Below, one piece after another: positions 1,669 to 23,040 of a DNA stretch of 39,817 nt. Source of the stretch: Chitinophagaceae bacterium (GTDB lineage: Bacteria > Bacteroidota > Bacteroidia > Chitinophagales > Chitinophagaceae); contig JAICPX010000002.1 of NCBI GenBank assembly GCA_025929635.1, forward strand, positions 1-39,817, written 5' to 3'. Position 1 is the first letter of the stretch. Each line of letters opens with the position of its first letter. The position numbers and the translations under genes are program-made. The notes under the pieces are model-generated. The model made no database searches. It was not told the DNA's origin and saw nothing but the letters and a program-made list of their open reading frames with translations.

Positions 1669-2718
1669 TCAGTCTCTCCTGGATTCCAACGTAAAACCAA
1701 TTGTCGTTCCCAGCCCCTCCGTGCTTCTTACATGTATGGTTTGGCCATGCGCTTCAATGATGTGTTTGCAAATAGCCAGCCCGAGTCCACTGCCGGTAAT
1801 GTCCCGGCTGCGCCCCCCTTCTGTTCGGTAAAAACGTTCGAAGATCCTCGGTAGATTTTTTTCCGGTATTCCAATCCCATCGTCACTGATCTCAACCAGG
1901 ATGTGTGCTTCATCAACTTTATATATGCTGGCAACAATATGCCCCCCCTGTTTGCTGTATTTAATCGAATTGTCAAGAAGATTGATCAGTAATTGCCTTA
2001 TTTTTTCTTTGTCTGCAAATACTGTCAGCGGGGATTCACAACCTTTCTTTATGCTAAAGCTGATTTGCGGACTTACTGCTTTGATCGATAAACTTTCAAA
2101 AACTTCTTTCACAAAATCCTGTATCACAAAATTTGTCTTGTTTAATACCAGCTCGCCTCTTTCTAATTTTGATATTTCATCAAGATCCTGGATTAGATTA
2201 GAAAGCCGTTCAATGTTCTTTTCTGTATTCTCCAAAAATCGTTTATTGATCTCCGGGTTATTCATGCCCCCGCTTAAAAGACTTTCTACGTAGCCTTGTA
2301 TGGCGAACACAGGTGTTTTGAATTCATGAGAAAGGTTTTGCAAAAACTCCCGGCGAAACTGCTCATTCTGTTTTAACAGGTCCATTTCCTGTTTATTTTC
2401 TTCGGCCCATTGCTCCACATCTTCTCTAACTTCATCAATACTTTTTTGCGGAAGAATGTATTTATAATATGTTTCCTCTTTCTTCGTCGCCTTTGTTTGA
2501 TAAATGAACTTGTAGATCAATTTTATTTTCCGGTAAATAAAACGCTCCAGCACAAAAGAGATGAGCACGTAACTGCCTGCCAAAATAATAATAAATGAAC
2601 CTAATCCCCAGCGCCAATCTTTTTCAATCAGGAAGATCAGCAAACTGATCGGTATCGACAAGATCAGTGCAGTAAAAAAAGAAAGTTGTCGTGGAGAAAT
2701 GTTTTTGGGAGAAAGCAT
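1669..2718 (-). CDS. Membrane sensor histidine kinase (PhoR-like)
   Basis: A 349-residue kinase starting MLSPKNISPRQ. The frame stays open to 2847, but the extra 43 codons are the translation of an inverted repeat, so the ATG at 2718 is chosen. Two hydrophobic segments (about residues 12-31 and 38-57) with almost no loop between them replace a large sensor domain. These are followed by a dimerisation region with phospho-acceptor His131 in NLSHEFKTP. The HATPase part has the N box DNSIKYS (Asn250), DDGIGIP and GSGLGLAI. It lies downstream of the response regulator gene at 2873-3550 and was probably co-transcribed with it. With no periplasmic domain, the signal is probably sensed in the membrane or through a partner protein, as for PhoR. 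The pairing with phosphate starvation is inference from family resemblance. Confidence 0.9.
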   Translation of the reverse strand: MLSPKNISPRQLSFFTALILSIPISLLIFLIEKDWRWGLGSFIIILAGSYVLISFVLERFIYRKIKLIYKFIYQTKATKKEETYYKYILPQKSIDEVREDVEQWAEENKQEMDLLKQNEQFRREFLQNLSHEFKTPVFAIQGYVESLLSGGMNNPEINKRFLENTEKNIERLSNLIQDLDEISKLERGELVLNKTNFVIQDFVKEVFESLSIKAVSPQISFSIKKGCESPLTVFADKEKIRQLLINLLDNSIKYSKQGGHIVASIYKVDEAHILVEISDDGIGIPEKNLPRIFERFYRTEGGRSRDITGSGLGLAICKHIIEAHGQTIHVRSTEGLGTTIGFTLESRRD

Positions 2719-2740
2719 GGTGCGCAAGTTAGTGGATTCT

Positions 2741-2855
2741 TGATGCTGGATACTGGATGCTGGATGCTGGATCCTCATGTGTGTGCCTAAAAAAAAGTCA
2801 ACCTTATTTAGGCAAGCTCTTAATATCCAGTATCCAGTATCCAGCATCTAATATC
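2741..2855. repeat. Nested inverted repeat built of 7-bp units
   Basis: The left arm (2741-2772) consists of tandem copies of GATRCTG, and the right arm (2824-2855) of the complementary unit CAGYATC. The best matched block is 17 bp (GATGCTGGATACTGGAT and its complement). Inside lies a second perfect inverted repeat, TGCCTAAA (2784-2791) and TTTAGGCA (2807-2814). The element fills the spacer between response regulator and kinase and would form a long hairpin in their mRNA. It causes the false N-terminal extension of the kinase frame. Confidence 0.85.
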
Positions 2856-2872: not shown

Positions 2873-3550
2873 TCACAACTCAAACTTATACCCAACACCC
2901 TTTACAGTGGTGATGCAATCAACGCCGAGCTTCTGACGGATTTTACGGATGTGAACATCAATGGTCCGGTCACCAACGATCACCTCTGCTCCCCACACCT
3001 GGCTTAAGATCTCATTTCTAACAAATACTCTTCCCGGTTTTGAAGCAAGAAGGTATAACAATTCAAATTCTTTCTTTGCCAGCATTATGTCTTTACCATG
3101 ATATTGGACAAGAAATTTTTCCGGGTCAATCACCAGTCCATTCACAGCTATCACCTTCACCTCGGTCTTATTTAACCGGCGAAACAGTGAACTTACCTTG
3201 CTGAGAAAAACTTTCGGACTTATTGGTTTATTGATATAATCATCGGCGCCGGTTTCCAACCCTCTTATTTGTGTGCTTTCGTCACTTAATGCGGTAAGGA
3301 AAAGTATCAATGTACTTTTAAAAGCAGGAAGCAGCCGGAGTATTTCGCATACTTCAACCCCATTTTTCTTCGGCATCATGATGTCGAGTACGATCAGGTC
3401 GGGATTAAACATTTTTGCCTTTTCGATCGCCTCGTCGCCATCCTTTGCCGTCACCACCTGGTATCCCTCTTTGACCAGGTTATACTTAAGGATCTCAAGT
3501 ATATCCGGCTCATCGTCGGCAATTAACACCTTTCGGCTTCTGATATCCAT
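2873..3550 (-). CDS. OmpR/PhoB-family response regulator
   Basis: A 225-residue two-domain regulator. The receiver domain (about residues 7-120) has the acidic pair Asp12-Asp13, phospho-acceptor Asp56 (DLIVLDIMMP), switch Thr86 (FLTALS) and Lys108 (NKPIS). The C-terminal winged-helix domain (about 130-225) has the typical ending DVHIRKIRQKLG ... TVKGVGYKFEL. Length and organisation match PhoB-like regulators. It is the first gene of the minus-strand pair with the kinase at 1669-2718. The 154-bp spacer between them carries an inverted repeat that could lower kinase expression relative to the regulator. The real target genes cannot be read from the sequence. Confidence 0.93.
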   Translation of the reverse strand: MDIRSRKVLIADDEPDILEILKYNLVKEGYQVVTAKDGDEAIEKAKMFNPDLIVLDIMMPKKNGVEVCEILRLLPAFKSTLILFLTALSDESTQIRGLETGADDYINKPISPKVFLSKVSSLFRRLNKTEVKVIAVNGLVIDPEKFLVQYHGKDIMLAKKEFELLYLLASKPGRVFVRNEILSQVWGAEVIVGDRTIDVHIRKIRQKLGVDCITTVKGVGYKFEL

Positions 3551-3572
3551 CCAATTAGTTTGAAAATTTCCG

Positions 3573-3580
3573 CAAACCTA
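3573..3580 (-). promoter_or_regulatory. Probable -7 element for the two-component operon
   Basis: On the minus strand the sequence reads TAGGTTTG, matching the Bacteroidota -7 consensus TAnnTTTG, 23 bp upstream of the response regulator ATG. No clear TTG was found at the -33 position, so confidence is moderate. Confidence 0.5.
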
Positions 3581-3752
3581 ACAGAAATTGCTCTTTACCA
3601 GGCACCGCACGCCGCTCATAACACAGACTTAATGAAAAATTAATAAAAGAGGCTTAATTCACAGATTATGAATAATTTTAACACGCCATTGACCGCGATC
3701 GGCCCGGTAAGGCAGTCTGGGAACGTATTCGTACCATTTAAAAATGATGATT

Positions 3753-3760
3753 TATTTTTG
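3753..3760 (+). promoter_or_regulatory. Probable -7 element for the 3773 gene
   Basis: TATTTTTG matches TAnnTTTG and lies 12 bp before the ATG at 3773. The -33 region is poor. Confidence 0.5.
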
Positions 3761-3772
3761 TAAACCATCCTT

Positions 3773-6016
3773 ATGATAGCAATTCGACAATATTCTATAC
3801 TACTGTGTGTTTTTCTTTTTGCCTCGTTAACTTCTCTTGCCCAAAATCCAAGAGATCCGAACCTTAAACCTAATCGCAACAGGGAATTATTTCATGATTA
3901 CGTTGATTCAGAACAGAAAAAAGCGCTGACCTCCGACGGCAAAGATGATAAGCTATTTACTCCCTCAGCAAACGAAGAAACGAATATCCAGATCACCAAT
4001 GCCCTCATTGGCAAAGTAAATGATTTGCAGAAAAAGATCGAAAAAGATTCTACCATCAGTGGTCAGGCGAAAGTGCTATATATCCGCGGCATGGAAAGAT
4101 TGCTAAAGGACTTTAACGCAGGATGGCGGACAAATCGTTTTGTAGCTACACGATTGCCCGAAGTACTTGACAGCTATGCAAAATGTATGGAGCTCGATAT
4201 TAAAAAGATGAGTATTGAAAATTATATTGAACAAATACATTATCATGTCGCCCGCCCATTACTTGATTGCACTGCATTTGAAAAGAACCCGGGGTATAAG
4301 ACATCACGGTATGTCATTATAAGAAAATTTTGCTTGTTGCACCCCGAACAGATATTTGCAACAATGCTGAATGCGCTTACCCATTATCCTGAAGTTCCTT
4401 TTGCAGACAGCATGATCATCGCTGCCGGTCATCTTTATCCAAAACAATTGTATGATTATGCAGCAGCGTCCAATGTTTTAGGCAAGCGAATAAAAACAAT
4501 TAAGGACCCGTTAGTGCAGGCGGTCACAAAAATGACCTCCAGCGGAGGCAGTGGCCAGTTGTATTTTCCTTTTCTTGACAATATTGTAAAAGGTAAAATG
4601 ACCTTGTCGGAAATTGATGCTGTGAGAAATGATTCTGTTCAATATTATAAGCTACTTGTAAAGACACATCTGGATTACAGGGAAAGGATCCTGAACAAGG
4701 ACACGGCATTTGAATTTGAGTCACTGACGGATATGATGGAAAGAAAATCGAGACAGGTTTTTGTAAATACAATAAATGCTCTGCATGACGAACCCGATGC
4801 TTTCCGGTTCCGGATCATTCAATCATTGAATGCCCAGGAACTTTATTATCTCGCCGTGTTAAATGACGGTGAGATTTATACATCAAGTTTTACTAAAGGC
4901 GTATTTCCTTTAATGATGAGCAGGGCCGGTAACCGTGGTGATTCTGTGCTTAAGCTCGTGATGTTTGATAAGTACCGCAAGTTTATCAAAATGGCCGCCG
5001 GGTATAACAAGCTAAGCAATTTCCTTAGCTCATTCCCGAACCAGGAAAATGCAAGCGATCTCATGAGAGCCTTTGTCGGCAACCTGGAGAAAACAGGAAG
5101 TCTTGAGGATGGTGTTGATGTTGCTGATTCGTACGCAAGCATCGTGGAAACAATGAAACCGCTTTCTGAAGAAATGCTCGTGAATGTAATGGTCAATCAT
5201 CAAAGAAATGTTGCTCGGAATAACAAGAAAGGAATGGAGATATACCGGATACTCGAAACACTTTTCCTTTCTGCGGATACGACAAAGAACATTAACCTGA
5301 CGAAGGAGCTGGGAGTGCCACCGGTGTATAATATTCCTTATGTAAATCTTGCAAATGACAGCAATCGCGTTGTGCTCCAGGTATTTTTTTATGGAGAGAA
5401 ATCCGATATGGGAATATTCAATGAATTTGTGGGGGCATTCAGAAATTCCAACTGGAAAATGAACAGCAATGATAAATGGGTAAGTTTTCATTCCGTAAAA
5501 GGTAAACCTGTTTCAATTTATGCAAACAGGGCGTTACCACAGGAAACGGGTGAAGACGAGAAAGCTCAAAAAGAGCTATGCAGTTACCTCACAAGAAATA
5601 ATATTTACCCGACTGTTACCATTCATCGCGGTCATAGCTATACTGCAGACTATACCATCAATCAGATGTTCGCAACGTCAAAGATCGTTTTTCTTGGCTC
5701 GTGCGGCGGGTATCATCTCATTCATGATGTGCTGGCGAAAGCTTCTGATGCCCATATTATTGCTTCAAAGCAAATAGGCAGAACAGTTATCAATCAACCC
5801 TTCATTGAACTGTTGACTGAAAAAGCAAGGGCCGGTAGTGGTATTGACTGGATCCCATTCTGGAAAGAATTCAGGAAGAAAGCGAACAATGTTCCCGAGT
5901 TTGATGATTATATCCCCCCGTATAAGAACCTTGGTGCTATTTTTATCAAAGCTTATAAAATAGCAATGGGTGAAACGGAACCTGACCTGGCGGTAATAAC
6001 CCCCGCGGGCCAATAA
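3773..6016 (+). CDS. Exported large protein with putative clan CD cysteine peptidase-like C-terminal domain
   Basis: A 747-residue protein with an N-terminal signal peptide (SILLCVFLFASLTSLAQ, cleavage near residue 24). The first 500 residues look largely helical and match no domain I recognise. From about residue 520 there is an alternating strand/helix region. It includes a hydrophobic strand (VVLQVFFYG), then TVTIHRGHSY with His618 and His621, then KIVFLGSCGG with Cys644. A His after a hydrophobic strand, followed by a Cys after a second strand and flanked by Gly, is the signature of clan CD peptidases (caspases, gingipains, clostripain, CHAT). The His-Cys distance of 23-26 residues is somewhat short for that clan. 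The gene is monocistronic with its own -7 element. Peptidase activity is inferred; a non-catalytic relative is possible. Confidence 0.7.
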   Translation: MIAIRQYSILLCVFLFASLTSLAQNPRDPNLKPNRNRELFHDYVDSEQKKALTSDGKDDKLFTPSANEETNIQITNALIGKVNDLQKKIEKDSTISGQAKVLYIRGMERLLKDFNAGWRTNRFVATRLPEVLDSYAKCMELDIKKMSIENYIEQIHYHVARPLLDCTAFEKNPGYKTSRYVIIRKFCLLHPEQIFATMLNALTHYPEVPFADSMIIAAGHLYPKQLYDYAAASNVLGKRIKTIKDPLVQAVTKMTSSGGSGQLYFPFLDNIVKGKMTLSEIDAVRNDSVQYYKLLVKTHLDYRERILNKDTAFEFESLTDMMERKSRQVFVNTINALHDEPDAFRFRIIQSLNAQELYYLAVLNDGEIYTSSFTKGVFPLMMSRAGNRGDSVLKLVMFDKYRKFIKMAAGYNKLSNFLSSFPNQENASDLMRAFVGNLEKTGSLEDGVDVADSYASIVETMKPLSEEMLVNVMVNHQRNVARNNKKGMEIYRILETLFLSADTTKNINLTKELGVPPVYNIPYVNLANDSNRVVLQVFFYGEKSDMGIFNEFVGAFRNSNWKMNSNDKWVSFHSVKGKPVSIYANRALPQETGEDEKAQKELCSYLTRNNIYPTVTIHRGHSYTADYTINQMFATSKIVFLGSCGGYHLIHDVLAKASDAHIIASKQIGRTVINQPFIELLTEKARAGSGIDWIPFWKEFRKKANNVPEFDDYIPPYKNLGAIFIKAYKIAMGETEPDLAVITPAGQ

Positions 6017-6173: not shown

Positions 6174-7979
6174 ATGGCTACCGGTATCAATAAAAAATTT
6201 TTTGATTTTGATCTTCTGAAAAGAGTACTGCGCTTTGCAGCACCGTATAAAAGAAGGTTCTATTGGTCGATAGCCCTGGCGATCATTCTTGCCGCTTTTA
6301 CGCCTGTTCGTCCCATACTTATTCAGCTAACGGTTGATAACTATATTGCCGGGGACAAAACGGCAACTTTCTTTAATGGGCTTTCAATTACTGAAATGCT
6401 GGTGCTGATCACTATTATCCAGATCCTTTTTCTTTTTCTTGAAACAACCCTTCGTTTTTATTTTTCTTACATCACCGCGTGGTTAGGCCAAAATGTGGTG
6501 AAAGATCTTCGTGTAAAAGTGTATAAAAAGGTTCTTTCATTAAATCTTTCTCAATTTGATAAGACCCCGATTGGAACATTAACAACAAGGACAGTGGACG
6601 ATATCGAAAGGATCAATGATGTATTTGCCGACGGGTTGATACCCATCATTGCCGACCTGCTTTCCATCATCTGCGTACTGGGTTATATGTTTTGGGCTGA
6701 TGCGAAACTGACATTGATCGCCCTGGTACCTTTCCCGGTTCTGATCATTGCAACTTATTATTTTAAAGAAAGTGTAAACAAATCATTTCACAGGGTAAGA
6801 AATGCAGTGGCACATTTAAACGCTTTTGTGCAGGAGCATATAACAGGCATGCAGGTGGTGCAGGCATTTGCTGCGGAAGACAGGGAGTTTGAAAAATTCA
6901 AGGCGATAAATAAAGAACACCGGAATGCCAATATCCATGCGATTTGGGCGTATTCGATCTTTTTTCCCATTGTTGAAATTGTGTTGGCTACCTCGATCGG
7001 TTTGCTTGTCTGGCAAACATCACACGAAGCTTTACAGCTTGAGCGCAGCCAGCAGGGAACATTAATGGCATTCATTCTTTGCCTGAATTTGATATTCCGT
7101 CCATTGAGGGTGATCGCAGATAAATTCAATGTACTGCAAATGGGCATGGTAGCAAGTGAAAGAGTTTTCAAGGTGTTGGACAATGATGATCACTTACAGC
7201 CTTCGCCGGCTGATGCACACAAGCCCCTCCATGTAAAAGGTAAGATCGGCTTTGAAAAGGTGTTGTTTGAATACACACCGGGTGTTCCGGTTTTAAAGGA
7301 TGTTTCTTTCCAGGTCGCCCCCGGAGAAACAATAGCTATCGTTGGACATACCGGGAGCGGCAAAACAACCATTATAAGTTTATTGAATCGCTTATATCAT
7401 ATACAAAGCGGCCAGATAAAGATCGATGATGTAAATATTGAGAAATACGATACTGACACGCTCCGGAAGAATATTGGTGTTGTGTTGCAGGATGTGTTCC
7501 TTTTCTCAGGTTCTATCATTGACAACATTACATTACGCAATAGTGAAATACCAAGAGAAAAAGTAATTGAGGCGGCAAAGCTGATCGGCATGCATGATTT
7601 TATCATGATGCTGCCAGGTAATTATGATTTCAATGTAATGGAAAGAGGCGCTACGCTTTCTTTAGGACAACGTCAATTGCTTTCCTTTATCAGGGCATTG
7701 CTTTACAATCCATCCATCCTTATTCTTGATGAAGCCACTTCTTCCGTAGACACAGAAAGTGAAATGATGATACAAAATGCGATCGATAAATTAATAACAG
7801 GAAGAACCTCCATTGTGATCGCCCACCGCCTTTCTACTATCCGTAAAGCAAGTAAGATAATAGTACTGGAGAAAGGAGAAGTAAAAGAAATCGGAACTCA
7901 CGATGAACTGATCACGAGAGATGGGTACTATCAAAAGCTTTACCAGTTGCAGTTCGAAAAACATAAGTCAGTTGCATAA
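6174..7979 (+). CDS. ABC exporter half-transporter (MsbA/MdlB-like)
   Basis: A 601-residue fusion of a six-helix type I exporter membrane domain (about residues 15-325) and an ATPase domain (about 345-595). Visible ATPase motifs are Walker A GHTGSGKTT (391-399), the Q loop VLQDVFLF, signature LSLGQRQ (495-501), Walker B LILDEATSS with Asp519 and Glu520, and the switch His in VIAHRLST. All catalytic residues are present. The length is normal for a homodimeric exporter of lipids, peptides or drugs. The substrate is unknown. It is followed after 17 bp by a metallo-beta-lactamase-fold gene and may be co-transcribed with it. Confidence 0.92.
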   Translation: MATGINKKFFDFDLLKRVLRFAAPYKRRFYWSIALAIILAAFTPVRPILIQLTVDNYIAGDKTATFFNGLSITEMLVLITIIQILFLFLETTLRFYFSYITAWLGQNVVKDLRVKVYKKVLSLNLSQFDKTPIGTLTTRTVDDIERINDVFADGLIPIIADLLSIICVLGYMFWADAKLTLIALVPFPVLIIATYYFKESVNKSFHRVRNAVAHLNAFVQEHITGMQVVQAFAAEDREFEKFKAINKEHRNANIHAIWAYSIFFPIVEIVLATSIGLLVWQTSHEALQLERSQQGTLMAFILCLNLIFRPLRVIADKFNVLQMGMVASERVFKVLDNDDHLQPSPADAHKPLHVKGKIGFEKVLFEYTPGVPVLKDVSFQVAPGETIAIVGHTGSGKTTIISLLNRLYHIQSGQIKIDDVNIEKYDTDTLRKNIGVVLQDVFLFSGSIIDNITLRNSEIPREKVIEAAKLIGMHDFIMMLPGNYDFNVMERGATLSLGQRQLLSFIRALLYNPSILILDEATSSVDTESEMMIQNAIDKLITGRTSIVIAHRLSTIRKASKIIVLEKGEVKEIGTHDELITRDGYYQKLYQLQFEKHKSVA

Positions 7980-18375: not shown

Positions 18376-19992
18376 CTATTGCTTAATGAATTTTTTTGTC
18401 TGGATATCTGCGCCATTGGTTACTTCAATGGTGTACATGCTTGTTTGCATGTTTGCAGCCAATGGAAAACTGATCATATTATCTCCTTTAAAGCTGTTTA
18501 TCCTGTTATGAATGATCACTTTCCCTGTCATATCGTATATTCTTACATCGATCGTTTTATCTGCTCCGGCTGCATAATTAAAGGTTAACTGATCACTTAC
18601 GGGATTGCCAATGATCTTAAGATTATTGCCGGTAGTGGGCTTATTTTGAAAAGTGAGTATCCTTGAATAGCTTATTTCATTTGTTTTGCTGGTGATCCTG
18701 AGACGGTACATCACTTTTTCATAGGCCGGGATAGTCTCATAAAACATATAATCTTCAACTCCCTTACTCTCACTTGTGAATACCAGGGCAACGGTTTTAA
18801 ATTCTTTACCATCGTAGCTTCTTTCTATCTCAAACTGGTTGATCATTTCGTTATTGCCAACTTTCCATTGAAGCCTTGTTCTATTGTTGGCATCAATATT
18901 ACCCTGGAGGCTTATCAGGTTAACAGGTAAAACGGACCAATAGTTACCAATGGCAAGCGTGGTATCATAACAGTCAGAAGCAGACTTTATATCGATTATT
19001 ACGGCCACATCCCACGATGGCAATACAATATATTGCGAACCCGTAGGTGTGCTGGTAAATGTCCTTGAATCAATCAGCACATCATTTATATCAAATTGTA
19101 ATGCGATGCCGGCATCAGAATAAACGTTTACAACAACGGGCAGGGCAGCGGCCGGTGCCGACAGGATATTGTAAGTGAGCAGCGCTTTAGTAGGCTCCAT
19201 CGCATATTGAGAAATGATAGCCGATATTGATAATTGATTTCCGGGAGCAGACGAAAAAGAACCATTTGTTGAACCGGGAGTATGTTGTCCCGGCTGGTCA
19301 CTTTTTAACCATTCACCACACAGCCCATCAAAGCTCCGGTAATAGCCATTATTTGTACCTAAAGAGTTTGGAATAAATTCTATGTCGTTGTCGGGAATTG
19401 TATTAAAATTGATTGTAAAATCAGGAGCGCTGCCACTCATATCAACAGGCAGGTTAGGCATTGACTTTATGGTCCCAGGCAGTGTAGTTGTATTGATCCC
19501 ACCAACAACTCCATTCACCAGTATCCCATTTTTATACACAAAAACATGGTATACTCCGTCGCTGCCACCAACTATTCTTACCATGAAGTCATTAAGGTTT
19601 GCCGGAACTGCAACCTGAGTATAAGAAGCACCATTCCGTTGCCATTTTGAAATCGCGCCGCCGGCAGGAATTGAGTTCCAGCTAAAATCGGCATTTTGAT
19701 TTAACTGTAATTGTATATCAAAGGGATCTTGTGAAGCTCCAGCATAGTACCCATGGGCGGCCATGTTTGCGTTGGGAAGATCGAGAATATAAAAACCAGA
19801 ATTGACACCTTCCTCGTAATACGTTACAATCGTATAATTGTCCAGGTTTTCTACGCTATTGCTCTCATTATAGAGTTCAAAGAATTCATGATAGCCATTA
19901 CCGGGTTGCGGGTAAACTTCATTCAGCACGGCCTGCGATCTCGAAAGAAGTGAAATAGATACGAGTACGCTGATAAGTAGAATTTTCTTCAT
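18376..19992 (-). CDS. T9SS-type secreted protein with lamin-tail-like domain (paralog A)
   Basis: A 538-residue protein with signal peptide (MKKILLISVLVSISLLSRSQ). The mature start AVLNEVYPQPGNGYHEFFELYN resembles a lamin-tail domain (about residues 22-190), often found in secreted bacterial surface proteins. The middle region has no recognised domain. From about 355 there is a fibronectin-III-like module (LQGNIDANNRTRLQWKVGNNEMINQFEIERSYDGKEF). The last 80 residues form a T9SS type A sorting domain (NLKIIGNPVSDQLTFNYAAG ... MYTIEVTNGADIQTKKFIKQ). It is paralogous over its full length to the 21424-23040 protein of equal size. It is preceded by a conserved leader and followed by a conserved 55-bp element. 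The role is unknown; it is probably surface-exposed or released. Confidence 0.85.
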   Translation of the reverse strand: MKKILLISVLVSISLLSRSQAVLNEVYPQPGNGYHEFFELYNESNSVENLDNYTIVTYYEEGVNSGFYILDLPNANMAAHGYYAGASQDPFDIQLQLNQNADFSWNSIPAGGAISKWQRNGASYTQVAVPANLNDFMVRIVGGSDGVYHVFVYKNGILVNGVVGGINTTTLPGTIKSMPNLPVDMSGSAPDFTINFNTIPDNDIEFIPNSLGTNNGYYRSFDGLCGEWLKSDQPGQHTPGSTNGSFSSAPGNQLSISAIISQYAMEPTKALLTYNILSAPAAALPVVVNVYSDAGIALQFDINDVLIDSRTFTSTPTGSQYIVLPSWDVAVIIDIKSASDCYDTTLAIGNYWSVLPVNLISLQGNIDANNRTRLQWKVGNNEMINQFEIERSYDGKEFKTVALVFTSESKGVEDYMFYETIPAYEKVMYRLRITSKTNEISYSRILTFQNKPTTGNNLKIIGNPVSDQLTFNYAAGADKTIDVRIYDMTGKVIIHNRINSFKGDNMISFPLAANMQTSMYTIEVTNGADIQTKKFIKQ

Positions 19993-20271: not shown

Positions 20272-20892
20272 TTATTGTTTTATGAATACCGAGGTGAGTC
20301 GTAGTATTGCGTTATTTATCTCTATTACATAAAATCCGGGCATAAAGCCGGAGTTCAATGGAATTGTTATGAAGTTATTCCCTTTGACACTATTTATTCT
20401 TTGACGGAGTACGGCGCTGCCGCTCAGGTCATAGATCTTCAATTCGGCCTGGTCCGCTTTTTTTGAAGTGTAGTTGAAAGAAAGCCTGTCACTGGCAGGA
20501 TTAGTCATAATGGTGATTTTATAATCTGGGGCGATTTTGTGCTGGAGGATGACGATTCTTGAATAAAATGAATGGTGGTTTTTACTGACAATTCTTAAAC
20601 GATACATTATTTTATCCGGGATATTGATAGAATCGGAATAAGCATAGCTTTCTGTAGCAAATTTGTCAGTGGCATTCAAAACCCCGATCGACTCAAAATC
20701 TTTTCCGTTAATGCATCTTTCAACTTCGAACCTGTTTGCGCCCTTGTTATTGCTAATTGTCCAGGTCAGTCGATTAATAGAATTTTCGCAACTACCGCTA
20801 AAATTGGAAATAAACGCCATATCCAGTTGTCCGTTTATTTTTTGAGCAGCTATTAAAAGGATAAGCAGGCAAAGGGTATAGTATTTTTTCAT
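20272..20892 (-). CDS. Shortened T9SS-type secreted protein (paralog B)
   Basis: A 206-residue protein with signal peptide (MKKYYTLCLLILLIAAQKINGQ). It is directly followed by the fibronectin-III-like module (NRLTWTISNNKGANRFEVERCINGKDFESIGV) and the T9SS type A sorting domain (YKITIMTNPASDRLSFNYTSK ... FYVIEINNAILRLTSVFIKQ). It matches the C-terminal 190 residues or so of paralogs A and C, but the lamin-tail and middle regions (over 330 residues) are missing. The frame is intact and the promoter and leader are conserved, so it is probably expressed rather than a decayed copy. It has no 55-bp terminator element behind it and may read through to paralog A. Confidence 0.8.
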   Translation of the reverse strand: MKKYYTLCLLILLIAAQKINGQLDMAFISNFSGSCENSINRLTWTISNNKGANRFEVERCINGKDFESIGVLNATDKFATESYAYSDSINIPDKIMYRLRIVSKNHHSFYSRIVILQHKIAPDYKITIMTNPASDRLSFNYTSKKADQAELKIYDLSGSAVLRQRINSVKGNNFITIPLNSGFMPGFYVIEINNAILRLTSVFIKQ

Positions 20893-21423: not shown

Positions 21424-23040
21424 TTATTGTTTTACAAATTTCGCGATCTGGCGGCCATCGGCATTTGCCACTTCCACTACATACAAACCAGGCGTGAAAG
21501 TTGCATTTAATGGCAGGCTTAACAGGTTACTTCCTTCCGCACTGTTTACTTTCTGGCTCATCATTGTTTTACCAGCCAGGTCGTATACTCTGATGTTTAC
21601 TTCCTGCGTGGCGTTTGAATAGAAGCTGAATGTAAGCTTATCTTTTACCGGGTTACCGTAGATCCTGATATCGTTTGTGATCAATGTTTTTGTTTGGAAC
21701 ACAAGAATTCTTGAGTAATCAATATCCTGTCCTTTGTCGATCATTCTTAAACGATACATAACCCTGTCACTTGCTGTTACAGTTTCATAGAACATGTAGT
21801 TCTCGGTGCCCATTTTTTCAGAAGCAAATACCACACCTACCGTTGAAAAATCACGACCATTGGTGCTTCTTTCGATCTCGAAGCTGTGTACTGTTTCATT
21901 ATCGGCTACTGTCCAGTTAAGTGTTACCTTATTATTCTTATTCATATTACCCTGGAACTTTAAAAGGTGCACGGGCAGCGGTGATAATCCGTTAGGTATC
22001 GCGATTACCTGGTCAAAACAACCCGAAGGGCTTTTTACAACGAGCATTACCGGGTCAGTTCTTGATGGAAGGATCACATACTGATCACCCTCATTGGTGG
22101 CATATATTATTCTTGAATCAACCAATACATCATTGGCATCGAGCTGGCCAACAGTCCCAAGGTCGGTATAAACCTGGATGGTGACAGGAAAGGCAGACAA
22201 AGTTGAAGAGGTAATATTATAAGTCAATAATGCTTTCGTATAGTCGCCACCTAATTCGCTGATTGCGTAACTAACAGAAACGCTACCGCTACCGGGTACT
22301 GCTGAGCCGTTTGAAACACCAGGTGTGTGTTGTGGCGCAGAGCTACTTTTGTTCCATACACCGCAAATTCCATCAGCAAGACGAAAATAACCATTGTCGT
22401 TTCCTGTCGCTGAGCCAATATATTCAAATTGGTTATCGCTATAAACACTAAAATCGATATAGAAATCTGTTGATGTTCCACTCATATCCACCCAAAAAGG
22501 AGGCAATGATTTGATATAGGTCGGTATTTTGGCTTGCGACATACCACCGAAAACACCATTTACCAAAACACCATTTTTAAAAACAAATATGTTGTGCTGG
22601 GCATTGTTACCCTGGCGTGGAATAAATATATTATTAAGGTTGGCTGGTAAAGAAACTTCACTATAAATACCTCCATTCCTTTCCCACCTTTTAAGATAAC
22701 CACCGGCCGGAATTGCATCCCAGCTAAAATTGGGAGTTACGTTATTTGAACCCTGGACTGAAAAAGGACTCTCTGAGGCCCCTACATAGAAACCTTTGGA
22801 TGCTACCGTTTGTGTCGGAAGATCCAACACATAAAAACCAGTTTTACCATTGTCCTCGAAATACGTAACAACAGTGTAGTCATCCATACTCTCAGGAGTA
22901 GGACTCGTACTTGTGTTGTAGAATTCAAAGAATTCACTTCTGTTGGCGCCTGGATCTGTATAGACTTCGTTAAATACTACCTGTGCATGTATGATGGCAG
23001 CAGAGAGGATAAGTACAGAAAGAGTAAAAATCTTTTTCAT
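21424..23040 (-). CDS. T9SS-type secreted protein with lamin-tail-like domain (paralog C)
   Basis: A 538-residue paralog of A with the same order of parts. It has a signal peptide (MKKIFTLSVLILSAAIIHAQ) and a lamin-tail-like start (VVFNEVYTDPGANRSEFFEFYN). The middle region shares short blocks such as PAGG, KNGVLVNGVFGG, QHTPG and KALLTYNI. A fibronectin-III-like module follows (VTLNWTVADNETVHSFEIERS), and a T9SS type A sorting domain ends ...FVKQ. DANDVLVDSR is shared nearly unchanged with A (DINDVLIDSR), suggesting a functional site. It shares promoter architecture and leader with A and B. The gene is divergent from the ABC transporter operon at 23311. Confidence 0.85.
   Translation of the reverse strand: MKKIFTLSVLILSAAIIHAQVVFNEVYTDPGANRSEFFEFYNTSTSPTPESMDDYTVVTYFEDNGKTGFYVLDLPTQTVASKGFYVGASESPFSVQGSNNVTPNFSWDAIPAGGYLKRWERNGGIYSEVSLPANLNNIFIPRQGNNAQHNIFVFKNGVLVNGVFGGMSQAKIPTYIKSLPPFWVDMSGTSTDFYIDFSVYSDNQFEYIGSATGNDNGYFRLADGICGVWNKSSSAPQHTPGVSNGSAVPGSGSVSVSYAISELGGDYTKALLTYNITSSTLSAFPVTIQVYTDLGTVGQLDANDVLVDSRIIYATNEGDQYVILPSRTDPVMLVVKSPSGCFDQVIAIPNGLSPLPVHLLKFQGNMNKNNKVTLNWTVADNETVHSFEIERSTNGRDFSTVGVVFASEKMGTENYMFYETVTASDRVMYRLRMIDKGQDIDYSRILVFQTKTLITNDIRIYGNPVKDKLTFSFYSNATQEVNIRVYDLAGKTMMSQKVNSAEGSNLLSLPLNATFTPGLYVVEVANADGRQIAKFVKQ

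Follow-up and report, generated by a model that had tools for sequence, protein, structure and literature searches.

The gene at positions 3773-6016 (+ strand, stop codon included) of the window, the whole 39,817-nucleotide stretch of Chitinophagaceae DNA that was analysed, encodes a 747-residue protein with a signal peptide, a long helical part and a C-terminal domain that carries His and Cys motifs. The ORF starts with ATG and continues without interruption across 747 codons, and stops are abundant on the reverse strand of the same stretch in the frame read. Comparison with two relatives of 78-79% identity gives a dN of ~0.14-0.15 and a dS of ~3-4.5, a saturated value, and indicates purifying selection. 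Judged from the open frame, the relatives and a dN of ~0.14, this is a real gene under constraint. By eye, the first 24 residues (3773-3844, +) are a signal peptide (MIAIRQYSILLCVFLFASLTSLA/QNP); its A/Q site is typical, and cleavage is likely before or after Gln24. Of 75 aligned sequences, at least 90% retain Gln24 of this AQ site, and in the AlphaFold2 model residues 2-23 form a helix, after which confidence is low (23-28). The protein thus looks exported, as the preliminary description had proposed. No type IX C-terminal domain or sorting motif was recognised in it by eye, and it was therefore dropped as a candidate T9SS cargo.

The gene is divergent from a two-component system and is followed by a transporter, all named by sequence reading. 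The response regulator (2873-3550, -) is of the OmpR/PhoB type and shares a 222-bp intergenic region with the gene, the sensor histidine kinase lies at 1669-2847 (-), and the downstream ABC transporter (permease plus ATPase) at 6174-7979 (+). The clusters of the kinase, the response regulator and the transporter are present in 70, 69 and 63 of 81 loci, respectively, the window being included in the kinase count. Among the relatives, the usual arrangement is the gene divergent from the kinase/response-regulator pair and the ABC transporter next, often with ATP synthase genes after it. The link to the two-component system may reflect regulation via the shared intergenic region, or plain synteny. 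The intergenic region (3551-3772) has TAnnTTTG-like boxes on both strands, with TATTTTTG near the gene start and TAGGTTTG on the opposite strand; a full -33/-7 pair was not found there. Outside Chitinophagaceae the neighbours differ and there is no constant operon partner; the recurring ones, which by eye resemble a methylase and MutS, seem to reflect no more than synteny.

The full-length AlphaFold2 model, built with 75 sequences, has a mean pLDDT of 92 (92.2) and a pTM of 0.82. Residues 35-526 (3875-5350, +) are helical in the model except for loops and one two-residue bridge, with pLDDT mostly 90-98, so that the ~500 helical residues described earlier amount to ~490. This part is likely an alpha-solenoid, and its best fold matches, though insignificant, include HEAT/ARM solenoids. 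It is best conserved at 335-376 (N335, R345, Y358, T370, S371, G376).

The C-terminal alpha/beta domain, residues 533-731 (5369-5965, +), is the putative catalytic domain. Modelled alone it takes the same fold, with a mean pLDDT of 92.7 and a pTM of 0.91. Its first half consists of strand 533-538, helix 543-555, strands 561-565, 569-574 and 580-585, and helix 594-608. The second half begins with strand 615-618 and HRGHS, followed by helix 622-631, strand 638-641 and GSCGG, helix 646-656, strand 661-665 and SKQxG, helices 671-686 and 693-703, and later helices. TVTIHRGHSY occupies residues 614-623 and KIVFLGSCGG residues 637-646, so the earlier numbering of His618, His621 and Cys644 is right, and their placement on two strands agrees with strands 615-618 and 638-641. 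In both models the HRGHSY motif (residues 618-623; 5624-5641, +), with His621 as the proposed general base, and the GSCGG motif (residues 642-646; 5696-5710, +), with Cys644 as the proposed nucleophile, stand directly behind the C-terminal ends of these consecutive strands. Two more conserved loops follow strands 533-538 and 661-665: residues 540-545 (5390-5407, +), YGEKSD here and YGDxDG in most relatives, and residues 666-674 (5768-5794, +), with K666, Q667, G669 and the invariant N674. All the conserved loops therefore lie behind C-terminal strand ends in the model, which is where the active site would sit in such sheets. The predicted element order, β1-α1-(hairpin)-β2-α2-β3(His)-α3-β4(Cys)-α3'-β5-α4-α5, is that of caspases plus the extra helix of separase, both as described in PMC4626109.

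The motifs are conserved well beyond what would be expected by chance. Among 137 distinct sequences of relatives from two phyla, Azospirillum included, Cys644 is present in all, His621 in 136, Ser643 in 136 and His618 in 134. Arg619, Gly620, Ser622, Gly642, Gly645, Asn674, Trp693, Trp697, Tyr713 and Pro716 are each found in 137/137. Eight of the 15 invariant alignment columns fall within the 28-residue stretch 618-645 (hypergeometric P ~7e-9), so the conservation of HRGHSY and GSCGG is not random. Cys644 is the sole invariant cysteine, the other cysteines of the window protein being unconserved, and no copy lacking it occurs among the 137 sequences. The expectation that His621 and Cys644 would be kept in homologs is thus borne out, Azospirillum included. 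Three proteins have Asn at 618, each being one member of a tandem pair (L059 1169-3394, L060 8335-10485, L085 8240-10366), and they retain His621 and Cys644; Tyr replaces His621 in a single protein, a long tandem copy that retains the Cys. The first-strand loop is more variable: it reads FYGDxDG across the family, with D542 in 132/137 (E in five), D544 in 130/137 and G545 in 132/137, and FYDDPDG in Azospirillum. The YGEKSD of the window protein is a change common to five of the 137. The sequence blocks of clan CD are, in MEROPS usage, His-Gly and Ala-Cys. The His-Gly and Ala/Gly-Cys blocks are not matched here: the family has His621-Ser622 and Ser643-Cys644 instead, with little or no variation; the Gly that precedes His621 is kept.

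Relatives are encoded in 42 of 61 genomes (the window's own and 60 related ones), and 35 of the 36 other Chitinophagaceae genomes sampled contain one. GTDB contigs contain at least 550 stretches that encode relatives; the best 80, which were retained, include Terrimonas, Flavisolibacter, Niabella, Niastella, Puia and Flavihumibacter. In a sample of the phylum, relatives occur in 11 of 297 genomes, all within Chitinophagaceae; a domain-profile search across the class Bacteroidia found 22 of 395 in all and added two further families. Four relatives from Azospirillum, annotated as 'hypothetical protein', were found in a search of plasmid proteins (E 2e-19 to 8e-16). They have in common with the family the C-terminal domain, with DxDG retained in the first-strand loop, and a short segment of the helices (profile positions ~327-388), and the rest differs. 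On these large plasmids (L282 5458-7233, L283 4786-6681, L284 4438-6654, L285 4573-6597) the domain stands behind a different N-terminal part, and in three of the four its gene has ethanolamine ammonia-lyase genes on one side and a LysE transporter on the other. Neither phages nor viral contigs, the latter searched with two queries, yielded a relative, and a phage or viral origin was discarded.

The family had been described as unrecognised, and the searches agree. Pfam, NCBIfam, PADLOC and PHROGs scans of the 747-residue protein gave nothing above cut-off, and neither the protein nor two profiles found a related sequence in the PDB. Weak PDB matches to designed cage proteins are confined to the helical part and not relevant, and matches to Vac14, DUF7923 and (in the Azospirillum relatives) Toprim_3, at 0.006-0.05 and below cut-off, were taken as chance. 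The HRGHS/GSCG motif is named in no paper found by the literature search. On these comparisons the family is unnamed and filed in no named family.

Profiles were made from the C25, CHAT, C14 and C11 domains of relatives, and 34 profiles were ranked against the domain. The preliminary description had looked to these four families, but neither the Pfam scan nor the profile comparison gave a significant match to any of them. The nearest is CHAT, first of 34 with a score of 22.4 (best unrelated family 20.9), while C25, C14 and C11 score within background. The hhalign P values are 0.013-0.025 for CHAT (PF12770), 0.2 for C14 (PF00656), 0.19-0.24 for C11 (PF03415) and 0.36-0.43 for C25 (PF01364). The CHAT, C14 and C11 alignments place the GSCG strand on the catalytic-Cys strand, and the longer spacing of the templates puts their His motifs out of register. 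Accepted clan CD families were compared at equal depth as a control: only CHAT and C14 detect each other strongly, with P 0.53 for C25-C11 and 0.03-0.15 for CHAT-C11. Since accepted families often miss each other at such depth, the missing profile match is weak counter-evidence. The separase profile PF03568 (C50) did not match the 747-residue protein in an hmmscan against all of Pfam, and gave nothing above cut-off in the 61 genomes.

Fold comparison with Foldseek gave no PDB match at E < 0.001. The best 50 matches listed, for the full model and for the domain, include no caspase, gingipain, separase or CHAT structure. Solenoids (the insignificant HEAT/ARM matches included) and Ras-like proteins top the matches of the full model, FeoB, GBP and Rab GTPases those of the domain alone (TM ~0.3), and viral models give a similar result with TM up to 0.43. 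This counts as evidence that the protein does not closely match a known clan CD structure. It is not decisive, because all TM values are low and Ras (3-1-4-5-6) and caspases (2-1-3-4-5) have the same core strand order. Structure prediction has thus given a confident model with the element order of clan CD, but no clan CD structure among the best 50 matches (TM at most 0.43).

Separase (MEROPS C50, clan CD) resembles the protein in having a helical N-terminal part, then one C-terminal His-then-Cys domain (PMC4626109, PMC4852461), and in the helix that separates the Cys strand from the one after it. The spacing of the two residues is also short in both, 23 here (His621/Cys644) and 26 in C. elegans separase (H1014/C1040; PMC4626109). 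There is, however, no sequence match, and the protein here is bacterial and exported. Caspase-7 (His144/Cys186) and PmC11 (133/179) have spacings of 42 and 46 (PMC4357240), and Csx29 (615/658) one of 43 (PMC10028731). The earlier remark that the His-Cys distance is shorter than in gingipains and caspases therefore stands against caspase-7, PmC11 and Csx29, but has to be softened as a mark of a distinct branch, since separase comes close and a short spacing is not unique.

CHAT and TPR-CHAT proteins (PF12770; Csx29) share the helical part and the His/Cys domain, and their top-ranked profile aligns GSCG with SACE and keeps the next helix, strand and helix in register. The match is insignificant (P ~0.013-0.025), however, and Csx29, whose spacing is longer, belongs to the CRISPR-associated proteins and has a pseudo-caspase domain (PMC10028731). 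Clostripain C11/PmC11 is similar by strand count: when the extra hairpin strands of the model are included, His lies behind the fifth strand and Cys behind the sixth, as in PmC11 (PMC4357240), but the profile is in background and the spacing of PmC11 twice as long. Gingipains and PorU-like C25 proteins are likewise exported cysteine peptidases of clan CD in Bacteroidota, but have no profile similarity to the protein, which lacks a recognised type IX C-terminal domain. Caspases and metacaspases (C14) share the xGH and SC motifs and the element order, but differ in spacing and in their sixth strand, which is not seen in the model beyond a two-residue bridge, and the profile comparison gives P 0.2.

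The favoured reading, at about even chances, is that of a cysteine hydrolase, probably a peptidase, which is exported, belongs to an unnamed family and acts in the manner of clan CD. The signal peptide would take it out of the cytoplasm, and the predicted solenoid may hold or present a partner or substrate. Cys644, modelled at the end of one strand, would be the nucleophile and would be activated by His621 at the end of the preceding strand, with Gly620, Gly642 and Gly645 shaping the active-site turns and the oxyanion site. The acidic loop behind the first strand, EKSD in the window protein and DxDG in the family, would occupy a position that contributes to the S1 pocket in clan CD enzymes. 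Several observations were counted in favour: the single invariant Cys with nearly invariant His621 and His618 across two phyla; the predicted element order, strand-end motif positions and PmC11-like strand count; GSCG aligned on the catalytic-Cys strand, with CHAT just above background; the partial mutual detection of clan CD families at this profile depth; and, by analogy, the helical part followed by a His/Cys domain in separase and Csx29. Counted against it were the Foldseek result, with P-loop GTPases first at TM 0.3-0.4; the lack of a significant clan CD profile match, with His-Ser and Ser-Cys replacing His-Gly and Ala/Gly-Cys; the conservation of His618 like that of His621; and the deviation of the window protein from the DxDG loop. 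Of the clan CD pattern suggested earlier, the conserved His-then-Cys order on consecutive strands, in clan CD element order, thus stands, but fold matches and the His-Gly block do not follow. Membership of clan CD (the caspase fold) is unproved by the models, and membership of any named clan CD family is not supported by the sequence comparisons.

The Ras-like domains that top the fold searches would fit a different cysteine-dependent enzyme, with a Rossmann-like domain outside clan CD, a sheet nearer to Ras-like and a His and Cys that do other chemistry, such as acyl transfer or amide or thioester hydrolysis. His-Ser for His-Gly and the want of a clan CD profile link clearly above background point the same way, but TM values of at most 0.43 establish no fold, and Foldseek matches cannot separate Ras from caspase sheets of equal core strand order; such an enzyme is unlikely, though the least so of the alternatives. 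A GTPase itself is ruled out: the P-loop GxxxxGK[ST] is absent, the first strand being followed by YGEKSDMG here and YGDxDG in relatives, and the protein is exported. HRGHS and GSCG are not HAD motifs, and a HAD-type phosphatase acting through the DxDG loop was dropped, the motif being broken in the window protein.

His618 is conserved as well as His621, so that these two, an HxxH pair, and Cys644, all nearly invariant, could ligate a metal, zinc or another, as part of a metalloenzyme or in a structural role. This is rather improbable: three tandem copies have Asn618 and one long copy Tyr621 with the Cys retained, no fourth ligand was identified, and GH[G/S] and [S/A/G]C on consecutive strands fit clan CD better. 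It is slightly less probable again that the protein is non-catalytic and serves outside the cytoplasm in binding or as a scaffold, with the conserved HRGHS/GSCG surface as the site where a ligand or partner binds. The solenoid makes up most of the protein, the DxDG acids are lost in the window protein, no activity is known and no constant operon partner is seen outside Chitinophagaceae. Against this, a single absolutely conserved Cys with a His across two phyla is typical of catalysis, and the copies with an altered His are rare and always retain the Cys.

The clan CD-like hydrolase reading can be extended, tentatively and at somewhat under even chances, to a new family: clan CD-type cysteine peptidases that are exported and combine a long alpha-solenoid with a compact domain in which His and Cys are 23 residues apart. 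This would be a bacterial extracytoplasmic counterpart of the separase/TPR-CHAT layout, near-universal in Chitinophagaceae and present in Azospirillum. An absolutely conserved Cys and nearly invariant His, in an unnamed protein that 35 of the 36 other Chitinophagaceae genomes encode, point to a putative core extracytoplasmic enzyme. If it is a clan CD-type peptidase, it would form a new branch that has a layout like that of separase but lies outside the cytoplasm, and whose His-Cys spacing is the shortest among those compared. Should it prove otherwise, a conserved domain across two phyla is still defined by the invariant set HRGHS, GSCG, N, W, W, Y and P.

The family also includes duplicated and longer members. 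A second, distant member (~30% identity) is encoded in the window's own genome (G000:C556:1696-3504, -; locus L031/L262); it retains HRGHSY, has GSCGA as its second motif, and adjoins two exported proteins that are related to each other. Tandem pairs of the gene occur at L059, L060, L078, L081, L082, L085 and L091. A tandem pair at L069 (4430-6699) has one copy in two frames (548 + 187 aa), apparently through gene breakage or a sequencing error. Relatives of ~930-1085 aa (L036, L038, L042, L043, L044) appear by reading to have the helical module twice, with one C-terminal domain after it. Elsewhere in the window, three related exported proteins are encoded in a row (18376-19992, 20272-20892 and 21424-23040, -). 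The two long ones have a similar NEVYxxPG..EFFE start, lamin-tail-like by eye, and all three have a similar C-terminal end of the sorting-domain kind.
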